From assembly GCA_945871905.1 (NCBI GenBank), contig CAMBXL010000016.1:1-46433 (forward strand): DNA of 46,433 bases, given 5' to 3'. This document shows, in pieces, positions 1 to 7,864 of this stretch. This stretch comes from Chitinophaga pinensis (GTDB taxonomy: Bacteria; Bacteroidota; Bacteroidia; NS11-12g; UBA955). Numbering within the stretch: the stretch's first letter is position 1; each line of letters opens with the position of its first letter. A model generated the notes under the pieces. It searched no databases and was not told the DNA's origin. It saw nothing but the letters and a program-made list of their open reading frames with translations. A program made the position numbers and the translations under genes.

Positions 1-115
1 TTATGATGGTTTTTTATAACCCAGTGTCCGATTAAATCGGGGCACAGTCTATAAAGACCATCATTAATCTAAAACAAAAAAGCTCATCTTTCGATGAGCT
101 TTGAGTACCCAGGGC
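1..115. repeat. 115-bp direct repeat, copy A (tRNA-Leu 3' end plus downstream)
   Basis: Identical to 422-536 except one base (g30 versus a451), an offset of 421 bp. Read on the minus strand it holds the last nine bases of tRNA-Leu(UAA), a terminator hairpin and a short sequence that itself resembles a tRNA-Leu 3' half (about 19-47). It is bounded by an inverted repeat, ATGATGGT at 3-10 and ACCATCAT at 57-64. Copy A begins at the window edge, so its true left end is unknown. Confidence 0.9.
79..102 (-). terminator. Terminator hairpin, duplicated copy
   Basis: The stem is AAAGCTCATC with a four-base loop and a perfectly matching arm, followed by a T-run on the minus strand. It is the exact copy of the tRNA-Leu terminator at 500-523 and sits in the upstream direct repeat, beyond the GIY-YIG ORF. 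It could therefore end transcription of that ORF. Confidence 0.7.
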
Positions 116-143
116 CCCGATTCAATCGGGGCACAACCGTGAA
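106..143 (-). pseudogene. Degenerate 3' half of tRNA-Leu
   Basis: Read on the minus strand, this matches the 3' part of the intact tRNA-Leu at 527-610. The variable-arm block TTCACGG-(T/C)-TGTGC and the acceptor end CCCTGGGTA are kept. The T-arm is replaced by the perfect palindrome GCCCCGATT-C-AATCGGGGC (114-132). The 5' half and anticodon arm are absent, so it cannot be a functional tRNA. It lies directly after the stop codon of the GIY-YIG ORF. Confidence 0.7.
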
Positions 144-151
144 AATTGTAT

Positions 152-403
152 TTACCAATTGTTATCAATTAGATATTCCAAGTATTTTCGATTTTTGGCT
201 TTTTTCAATCTTCGTTCTTCCTGAATTGCTTCAATTTCAGTTTGAAATGATTTTTTAGATTTCAGTATATAAGGTAAGCCAATTTTAGTTGATTTTACAA
301 AACCAAGATTGTGTTTTTCAAGTAATTTTTTTTCAGGATTTTCAGAATAACCGATGTAATATCGGTCAATTTTAGAAGAATAAAGTATATAAACGTAAAA
401 TAT
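152..403 (-). CDS. Small GIY-YIG superfamily endonuclease, no canonical start codon
   Basis: The translation starts FYVYILYSSKIDRYYIGYS and ends KAKNRKYLEYLIDNNW. It shows the GIY-YIG signature as YVYIL...YYIGYS, a conserved EEr-LKKAKNRKYLE tail and the usual length (about 83 aa) of stand-alone GIY-YIG proteins of Bacteroidota. The expected initiating ATG is an ATA at 401-403, and the frame closes at a TAA at 422-424, so no ATG, GTG or TTG start is available. Either a rare ATA/ATT start is used or the gene has lost its start. It lies between the two 115-bp direct repeats, downstream of tRNA-Leu in the same direction. The fold assignment is confident; activity and expression are uncertain. Confidence 0.65.
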   Translation of the reverse strand: MFYVYILYSSKIDRYYIGYSENPEKKLLEKHNLGFVKSTKIGLPYILKSKKSFQTEIEAIQEERRLKKAKNRKYLEYLIDNNW

Positions 404-421
404 AATGTAAAAAAACTCACA

Positions 422-536
422 TTATGATGGTTTTTTATAACCCAGTGTCCAATTAAATCGGGGCACAGTCTATAAAGACCATCATTAATCTAAAACAAAA
501 AAGCTCATCTTTCGATGAGCTTTGAGTACCCAGGGC
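422..536. repeat. 115-bp direct repeat, copy B (overlaps 3' end of intact tRNA-Leu)
   Basis: Partner of 1-115, one mismatch. Here the acceptor-stem bases 527-536 belong to the functional tRNA-Leu. The repeat ends exactly where the degenerate copy diverges from the real T-arm. The inverted-repeat arms lie at 424-431 and 478-485. The spacing (421 bp) defines a unit made of the repeat plus the GIY-YIG ORF. Confidence 0.9.
500..523 (-). terminator. Rho-independent terminator of tRNA-Leu
   Basis: A perfect 10-bp stem AAAGCTCATC / GATGAGCTTT with a four-base loop, followed on the minus strand by a T-rich run. It lies three bases after the discriminator base of tRNA-Leu. Confidence 0.85.
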
Positions 537-610
537 GGGACTTGAACCCGCACAGCCGTGAAGCCACAGGATTTTAAGTCCTGCGTGTCTACCGATTCCA
601 CCACCTGGGC
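527..610 (-). tRNA. tRNA-Leu(UAA)
   Basis: Minus-strand cloverleaf of 84 nt with the long variable arm typical of tRNA-Leu. The acceptor stem is GCCCAGG with CCTGGGT (one G-U pair), discriminator A. The anticodon loop CTTAAAA gives anticodon UAA. The T-arm is GCGGG-TTCAAGT-CCCGC. The CCA end is not encoded. It is transcribed with the upstream tRNA-Gly. Its 3' end is duplicated at 106-115. Confidence 0.96.
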
Positions 611-7394: not shown

Positions 7395-7864
7395 TTGTAG
7401 TTATTGGTTAAGTTAATAGTTAAAGGTTATTAGTCCCGATAGCTATCGGGAAATGGTTAATAGTTAATAGTTTCACACGGTTCAGCTTGAGGTTAATAAA
7501 ATGATTGTTTGCTTGTCATATTGATTTTTGCAAATAAATATATTCTACAAATAGTTGAAATTTGGTTCAAGTAATGTACTCTAATTCTTTCATAATTCTC
7601 AAAATTTAAAGTCAATAGCAATGATATTTAACTAGATTTTTTTTAAATTAATTGAAAATCATTATTTGAGAGATTTTTTTATTTTCATCATCTTTTGATT
7701 AGGGAAAAGATTAAAATCAAGTAATTGGGTTTTCAACCTAATTTAATCATGTAAGAATCGATTTTTATTTTATAATTACTAATGTCTTAATGTTAAATAA
7801 ATTGCACTCATAAACGGAATGTATTTACTAGTATTTTGTTTTACAATTTAAAAATAATATCAAA
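7395..7864. other. Long AT-rich intergenic region with palindrome
   Basis: About 470 bp between divergent genes. It contains the 16-bp palindrome at 7435-7450, flanked by repeats of GTTAATAGTTAA (around 7411 and 7457-7470). No ORF with recognisable coding character was seen in the rest. Promoter boxes for the downstream copper-protein gene were not clear. Confidence 0.5.
7435..7450. repeat. 16-bp perfect palindrome CCCGATAGCTATCGGG
   Basis: Self-complementary over all 16 bases. Related in core (CCGAT...ATCGG) to the palindromes at 28-40 and 114-132. It has no T-run beside it, so it is not an obvious terminator. Similar short palindromes are familiar in intergenic regions of flavobacterial genomes; their role is not established. 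Confidence 0.8.

Follow-up and report, generated by a model that had tools for sequence, protein, structure and literature searches.

The locus lies at the left end of a 46,433-bp stretch of DNA (the window), which is the entire contig C16 of a 2.5-Mb, 31-contig genome, base 1 of the window being the contig end. Read along the minus strand, it comprises a tRNA-Gly gene (658–731), an intact tRNA-Leu(UAA) gene (526–610), a terminator-like hairpin directly 3' of the latter (500–523), a decayed tRNA-Leu piece (relic 1), a GIY-YIG nuclease frame (152–403, with the TAA stop at 152–154 and ATA as first codon), a second broken tRNA-Leu copy (relic 2, ~106–160), a second terminator-like hairpin (79–102) and a second copy of relic 1. 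Both tRNA genes were found by tRNA calling, the leucine gene with anticodon taa and an Rfam tRNA score of 61.2 bits, while the two terminator-like hairpins emerged from repeat analysis and are aligned in A3, our alignment of the locus with that of the relative G001. A direct-repeat block of 115 bp, made up of the tRNA 3' end, the terminator and relic 1, is positioned next to the tRNA at 422–536 and again at 1–115, where it reaches the contig end; the two copies are spaced 421 bp apart and differ in one base (99% identity). This order of parts and the single difference between the blocks had been proposed in a preliminary description of the DNA, and tRNA calling, repeat analysis, the Pfam PF01541 match and alignment A3 bear them out. 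The tandem that was judged probable there would continue past the contig end. No further copy of the block was found in the rest of the 31-contig genome, and one G001 gene from the far side of the locus is without a match there.

The two relics carry structures that the preliminary description did not include, namely hairpins that replace or interrupt the arms of the broken tRNA copy. In A3, relic 2 is composed of a D-arm piece, the variable arm, a hairpin and the acceptor 3' end of the host tRNA; its anticodon arm is deleted, and its T arm has been exchanged for a CCCCGAT..ATCGGGG hairpin, the palindrome CCCCGATTGAATCGGGG at 115–131 on the minus strand. A tRNA copy with the T arm replaced by a hairpin and the anticodon arm gone is not the outcome of ordinary decay. 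Relic 2 had been described earlier as 106–143, a real feature that proves longer, and relic 1 (minus strand) is present at 438–468 as proposed, enclosed by a long imperfect hairpin at ~424–485. This hairpin has a folding z-score of −3.5 and its copy at ~3–64 one of −5.2, with none of 200 shuffles folding equally well in either case, and the hairpin of relic 2 has a z-score of −2.8 (matched by 5 of 200 shuffles). The D-arm piece of relic 2 also encodes the stop and last codons of the nuclease frame. Only tRNA reaches its Rfam cut-off at the locus (Ysr49, at 27.6 bits against a cut-off of 95, was taken as chance), and the 421-bp unit holds no integrase or recombinase frame, the longest other ORFs there being shorter than 90 aa. 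The arrangement can be described as a cassette, one GIY-YIG ORF flanked by an intact and a broken copy of the host tRNA gene, which here is tRNA-Leu(UAA). Two other loci of the same genome (L009, 1240–1460, and L004, 1760–2020) contain tRNA-Met genes with upstream relics and other GIY-YIG ORFs adjoining, the relics bearing palindromes in the D loop and anticodon loop.

The nuclease frame matches PF01541 with 34.2 bits (cut-off 22.6), is open for 89 aa without stops, and aligns over 155–403 with the complete ORF of G001. No ORF of 40 aa or more that starts with ATG, GTG or TTG is listed within it; the ATG start of the G001 and G005 ORFs is ATA in the window, and the near-invariant Arg26, present in the 13 other rows of the 14-row alignment A1, is replaced by Lys. 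We take this arginine to be the catalytic one of the GIY-YIG family. Because of these three features the window copy appears to be dead or dying, probably so despite a dN/dS of 0.115 against G001; the family as a whole retains both the start codon and the conserved residue that the window copy lacks. The window locus is therefore best described as a probable decaying copy of the cassette. The near-identity of the repeats had been taken as the mark of a recent event, and the duplication of the 115-bp block may indeed be recent, but the nuclease that it accompanies looks inactive. A tandem duplication of the ordinary kind beside a tRNA, compounded by an assembly fault, would account for the position at a contig end and for the dead-looking nuclease; it is scarcely credible, since the same plan is found in many genomes, isolates and single-contig assemblies among them, which already contradicts it.

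Across 17 genomes of the genus, a GIY-YIG ORF follows tRNA-Leu(UAA) in four (G000, G001, G005 and G011, the last called from an ORF start at a contig end), and the site is empty in seven (G003, G004, G007, G009, G012, G014 and G015), with 456–1506 bp readable downstream. Three genomes (G002, G013, G016) are cut too short, and three (G006, G008, G010) have no tRNA-Leu(UAA) match. Occupied and empty alleles of one site thus coexist within the genus, as expected of a free-standing homing endonuclease, in place of the uniform occupation that the preliminary description had named as speaking against a mobile unit; the comparison recorded no gain event. The tRNA-Leu(UAA) sequence is identical in the carrier G000 and in the empty genomes G007, G009 and G015. 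The sister genome G001 holds a single unit without the 421-bp repeat. In G005 the relic is the mirror case of relic 2, its anticodon arm being replaced by CCCCGATTGCATCGGGG and its T arm missing. The terminators behind the intact tRNA and behind the relic are alike within a genome and different between G001 and G005, a pattern suggestive of independent insertions or of conversion that is still under way. Downstream of Leu(UAA), relics score at best 29–42 in the carriers G000, G001, G005 and G027, and no higher than 25 where a carrier ORF is absent (G011 is truncated and the G037 relic lies upstream); the relic call at this tRNA therefore depends mainly on reading the sequence. A tRNA 3' end with a terminator-like piece and no ORF in G014 may be a scar, its alignment score of 23 lying at background. 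In nine genomes (G002, G009, G011, G012, G013, G016, G018, G044 and G047) a contig end lies no more than a few hundred bases from tRNA-Leu(UAA), as would be expected if unresolved arrays lay there. A similar empty-site comparison at the Val locus of genus g8 was discarded, because in several members, in spite of conserved flanks, the tRNA is inverted or lies kilobases off.

Searches of the 17 genus genomes and of 65 genomes of the order yielded 104 distinct GIY-YIG ORFs or pieces. Those resembling the window ORF are positioned beside tRNAs of 16 isotype labels and on the same strand, with no opposite-strand tRNA at any of the 85 ORFs examined in this survey. Outside the loci used to train profile A1, a tRNA or relic lies within 400 bp of 28 of 35 ORFs scoring at least 65, against 7 of 34 low-scoring ORFs, which counts in favour of a tRNA-gene cassette; counted against it are 9 of 50 high-scoring ORFs (2 of 15 training, 7 of 35 others) with neither within that distance. 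These counts omit 19 fragments shorter than 56 aa, and one low-scoring ORF at a training locus (linked, 1/1) stands outside the 34. Since A1 was built from tRNA-linked ORFs, and some held-out ORFs are close same-genus relatives of the training ORFs, the phylum sample of 29 loci described below provides the freer test. In a tree of 78 rows, based on few columns and with many forks unresolved, generic GIY-YIG proteins form one clade of 23, of which 22 are without a tRNA label, and the other clade of 55 rows is mostly tRNA-linked and contains branches belonging to Val, Ala, Glu, Asp, Met and Leu. The 47 labelled tips require 22 changes of isotype, compared with 32–39 in 200 shuffles, again counted in favour, and the linked or unlinked state switches 11 times compared with 17–29 in shuffles; some isotype labels are doubtful, the second ORF of L108 being labelled Pro beside a Phe relic. 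Users of Leu(UAA) comprise the window's branch together with G027 (L155) and G037 (L147), both of which sit on long branches and are unsure.

The encoded proteins are bare catalytic domains of ~80 aa, and PF01541 matches all 14 rows of A1. They are under constraint: dN/dS for 12 pairs is 0.05–0.12 in five, two pairs show no amino-acid change, and synonymous sites are saturated in the other five. Homing-endonuclease models match members of A1 (group I intron endonuclease in 4 of 14, SegE in 1 of 14), counted towards a homing-type nuclease, and the nearest solved structures by profile are UPF0213 proteins (PDB 1zg2 and 1ywl) and the structure-specific nuclease SLX1. The ORFs are not contained in an intron or intein; they lie between tRNA copies, and Rfam finds only tRNA in eight other loci. 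Classification as a defence system or an RNA family was dropped in view of the Rfam result and of weak matches to PADLOC models, PDC-S14 matching at most 5 of 14 ORFs with a best E of 1.3e-5. A tblastn search with the L045 ORF gave no match in phage and plasmid collections. One contig end in IMG/VR (L267) contains part of a tRNA-Val, an ORF and a hairpin relic on the same plan, and represents either a viral carrier or a mis-assigned piece of host DNA. A further nuclease branch, LPYCVYVLFSEKD.. (L056, L057, L058, L059, L070, L071 and L050), is found with tRNA-Arg, -Met, -Phe and -Val, where sequence matching the tRNA 3' end or terminator as an inverted repeat, and then a further stretch, separate the tRNA from the ORF.

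When 84,980 species genomes were scanned with the Val-type profile, at least 326 relatives were recovered, of which the best 80 were kept. These derive from isolates and MAGs and, going by record names, belong to Bacteroidota save for three MAGs named for other phyla; their genera are those of Flavobacteriales, Cytophagales, Chitinophagales, Sphingobacteriales and Bacteroidales. The three MAGs with the cassette are named Limnohabitans (L160), Streptomyces griseus (L185) and Bifidobacterium breve (L221), and the contigs are perhaps mis-binned. Among the best 80 loci, 63 have a same-strand tRNA call less than 400 bp upstream, also counted in favour of the cassette, with 50 Val(UAC), 6 Arg(UCU) and 7 others; five of the 63 calls (two Ile(tat), Val(aac) and two '???') are probably relics miscalled by ARAGORN. 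The ORF is followed by a tRNA relic in 58 of the 63, and the relic bears a YYCCG..CGGRR hairpin in 54 of these, the four without the motif showing a changed base in the hairpin (L162 and L198), a deleted arm (L231) or the host arm (L216). At 5 of the 63 loci the contig stops no more than 120 nt from the ORF. When the flanks of the 17 loci without an upstream call were read, a hairpin relic was seen in nine, a tRNA or part of one in five and nothing sure in three (L194, L201, L208), and the motif follows the ORF in 16. Among control windows taken at these loci, 35 of 640 contain the motif and 8 of 511 have a tRNA-like score of at least 40.

The Leu-type ORF of G001 was also compared with 395 Bacteroidota genomes, 97 of which have a match at E ≤ 1e-10. 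At the 29 best-scoring loci outside the window's genome, which are not a random draw of the matches, a same-strand tRNA lies within 400 bp in 24 and an opposite-strand tRNA in none. The tRNAs at the linked loci are mostly Gly, Asp and Ala, and a relic scores at least 40 in 18 of the 24 and below 40 in six; the other five of the 29 show a hairpin relic or a partial tRNA on reading the flanks. The proposal that a GIY-YIG unit bounded by tRNA copies is carried beside tRNA genes thus extends to many tRNA genes across Bacteroidota, with tandem arrays at other loci.

Two mirror geometries are observed. In type A the intact tRNA is followed by a terminator, the ORF, a 3' relic and a copy of the terminator, and in type B a 5' relic, in some cases with a copied promoter, precedes the ORF and the intact tRNA. 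Duplication of the tRNA 3' end, suggested earlier as the defining feature, is therefore present in many loci, but the mirror form copies the promoter and the 5' half instead and has the intact tRNA downstream. Units are often repeated: at least two ORF hits, some of them fragments, are present in 27 of the 80 best Val-type loci, Flaviaesturariibacter flavus (L196) having five full hits and a partial sixth, spaced 351 bp apart, and the complete genome of Marivirga arenosa (L176) having two. In the single-contig genome G373, an intact tRNA-Asp heads a row of five ORFs spaced 315 bp apart, with a 3' relic containing a hairpin behind every ORF. In the single-contig genome G211, a 5' relic containing a hairpin stands before each of three ORFs and an intact tRNA-Pro closes the row; a similar array of three precedes tRNA-Ser. 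At tRNA-Ser, two other single-contig genomes show type A with three ORF hits, the last shortened (G315), and type B with two (G267). In all five arrays from single-contig genomes, which have two to five ORFs, ARAGORN calls one tRNA, located at one end. Algoriphagus AK58, with two ORF hits, and A. lacus have a downstream flank in common (80%).

These arrays bear on the possibility that the nuclease, instead of homing selfishly, drives tandem duplication of the tRNA locus and is kept by selection, either for tRNA dosage or in response to tRNA-cutting defence systems. Phage T6 offers the precedent, in that SegB amplifies a unit of segB and tRNA-Tyr by recombination, probably of the 5' region of the tRNA with the 3' end of segB, which share microhomology (PMC13096335). 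The ORF ends here likewise run into tRNA-copy sequence, and the 27 Val-type loci with repeated ORF hits fit as well. We nevertheless judge this explanation unlikely, because in the five single-contig arrays the extra copies are broken and only one tRNA is intact, so that dosage is not raised; the relic at L216, with its host anticodon arm, is an exception to that objection.

The relics are derived from the host's own tRNA. In the Val type the hairpin occupies the anticodon-arm position, GAGCA[arm]GGGTC, and the remainder of the relic follows the tRNA of its host. Over 48 Val and Arg relics of type A, mean identity to the host tRNA is 0.894 for the 30 nt distal to the ORF and 0.752 for the 18 nt on the ORF side, with perfect identity in 27 and 2 relics, respectively (Wilcoxon p = 4e-4); the distal half is the more host-like in 37, nine show the opposite and are counted against, and two tie. 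Type B relics display the mirror pattern, as seen by reading the sequence. Hairpin sites vary between branches, which we count against the homing-type cassette, and include apparent double hairpins in the T loop at Arg (L129), Asp (L111) and Gly (L130) loci, as well as Asn cases of two families (L072, L112) with hairpins at the same two places. At L186, L215, L157, L197 and L203, ARAGORN calls a tRNA-Ile(tat), Leu(tag) or Cys(gca) where a hairpin relic lies. An 18-bp palindrome, TCCCGATAGCTATCGGGA, is dispersed in the window's genome and occurs at 7434–7451 of the window within an apparent AT-rich repeat.

Such hairpins might themselves be the mobile unit, with an SLX1-like, structure-specific GIY-YIG protein moving or exchanging them, swapping tRNA arms in the process, and finding tRNA genes because they are rich in hairpins. 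The exchange of hairpin for hairpin at near-exact borders, and the presence of SLX1 among the nearest solved structures, are consistent with this. The inner three pairs of the 39 distinct Val-type hairpins show complementarity in 87 of 99 cells, compared with a shuffled mean of 53.8 and maximum of 69 (2000 shuffles), so that the sequence changes while the hairpin stays; this covariation would be expected of a mobile palindrome, though the outer five pairs of the stem are fixed by the search motif and the pair counts are uncorrected for relatedness. With up to one mismatch, TCCCGATAGCTATCGGGA has 9 sites in the window's genome, 2 in tRNA relics and 7 outside them, a distribution that also accords with independent movement, but the seven dispersed copies are at least 7 kb from that genome's GIY-YIG matches or on other contigs. 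Intact tRNAs, moreover, retain their own arms. Taken together, mobile palindromes seem to us an improbable explanation. Retention of the hairpin through sequence change could also reflect a system acting on RNA, in which the nuclease cuts tRNA and the hairpin-armed pseudo-tRNA serves as a decoy or antitoxin. A tRNA-like fold persists in some relics, of which three at L163 pass the Rfam tRNA cut-off of 29 bits (29.3–39.6), and the weak PDC-S14 matches to at most 5 of 14 ORFs would agree with it. The ORF-side half of the relics is less conserved, however, and many relics are only part tRNAs, unlike a conserved RNA, which makes this explanation very unlikely.

We consider it somewhat better than an even chance that a small selfish tRNA-gene cassette, spread through Bacteroidota and equipped with a nuclease of the homing type, is present at the locus as a decaying copy. 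Drawing on the SegB precedent of cuts in tRNA genes and amplification of a unit, we propose a cut-and-copy insertion in which a free-standing homing-type endonuclease would cut the corresponding tRNA gene within or close to one of its arms, and the outer halves of the two tRNA copies, with the terminator or promoter, would act as homology arms. Repair from an occupied template would then insert the ORF and rebuild one intact tRNA. The broken copy, in which one or more of the anticodon, T and D arms are apparently replaced or interrupted by a hairpin, would no longer have the cut site, its destruction perhaps rendering this copy cut-proof, and recombination between the directly repeated units could multiply them in tandem. 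Cleavage and its site, homing or transfer, and protection by the hairpin are what we infer from this architecture. Beside the linkage counts, the proposal draws on the mirror geometries, the more host-like distal half of the relics, the patchy occupation of the Leu(UAA) site, the constraint on the protein and the arrays with a single intact tRNA at one end. The main difficulty for homing is that the intact tRNA is the same in carrier and empty genomes, so that a carrier should cut itself if the tRNA gene alone is the target; control of expression or a longer target would be needed. Counted against homing as well is that the nearest solved relatives, UPF0213 and SLX1, are not sequence-specific homing enzymes, and homing leaves the palindromic nature of the break unexplained.

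A bolder view, to which we give slightly less than even credence, is that the cassettes constitute a separate class of minimal mobile element, in which a ~80-aa nuclease parasitises tRNA genes throughout the phylum, one working tRNA is rebuilt at each insertion, the other copies are made cut-proof by an arm-replacing hairpin, and the resulting arrays have a single live tRNA at one end, followed by dead hairpin-tRNA cassettes. The cassette offers a possible reason why small GIY-YIG genes adjoin tRNAs in so many Bacteroidota, and a chromosomal counterpart to the amplification by phage SegB. With it, one can ask experimentally whether homing in bacterial chromosomes is directed at tRNA genes, and by what means an element preserves an essential tRNA. 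In the literature searched, whose coverage excludes most subscription papers and preprints, we found no account of hairpin-armed tRNA copies, of the exchange of an arm for a hairpin in them, or of such a cassette in a bacterial chromosome. For annotation these loci are a hazard, since some relics are called as tRNAs of other isotypes by ARAGORN and assemblies often end there.

Several known systems share parts of this design. Homing elements of fungal mitochondria that carry a replacement gene end consist of an endonuclease ORF with a duplicated gene end, and the double-hairpin elements of the same organelles are GC-rich hairpins inserted in RNA genes; the genomes and targets are different, and the likeness is one of resemblance only. 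Integrase elements at tRNA genes leave the tRNA whole and duplicate one end. The preliminary description had likened the unit to such att sites while pointing out that it has no integrase; the latter is correct, and the former stays an analogy, free-standing homing nucleases of the SegB type being the better fit. Unlike the integrase elements, the cassette is a few hundred bases long and has a single nuclease ORF, no integrase and hairpin-broken copies. By profile, the closest solved relatives of the cassette nucleases are the UPF0213/YhbQ-like proteins and SLX1, but the generic GIY-YIG ORFs of the same genomes fall in the separate 23-row clade of largely unlabelled proteins.

SegB of the T-even phages is a free-standing GIY-YIG homing endonuclease of the tRNA region (PMC2988022, PMC13096335), and is reported to cut inside tRNA genes at the motif RAWTSGAAC. 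We read this motif as the opposite-strand sequence of the T arm, the part of the tRNA at which several of the relics are broken. SegB and the cassette have in common a free-standing GIY-YIG nuclease beside tRNA genes of many isotypes, tandem units of tRNA and ORF, and an ORF end that shares sequence with a tRNA, in SegB with the tRNA start. The cassette differs in being chromosomal and distributed across Bacteroidota, in the size of its protein (~80 aa), in its hairpin-broken extra tRNA copies and in its two mirror geometries, and is known here from sequence alone; the word 'hairpin' occurs 0 times in PMC13096335. As a kind, the cassette is best read as nearest to the free-standing GIY-YIG homing nucleases, and its comparison with these systems suggests a kinship with phage SegB.
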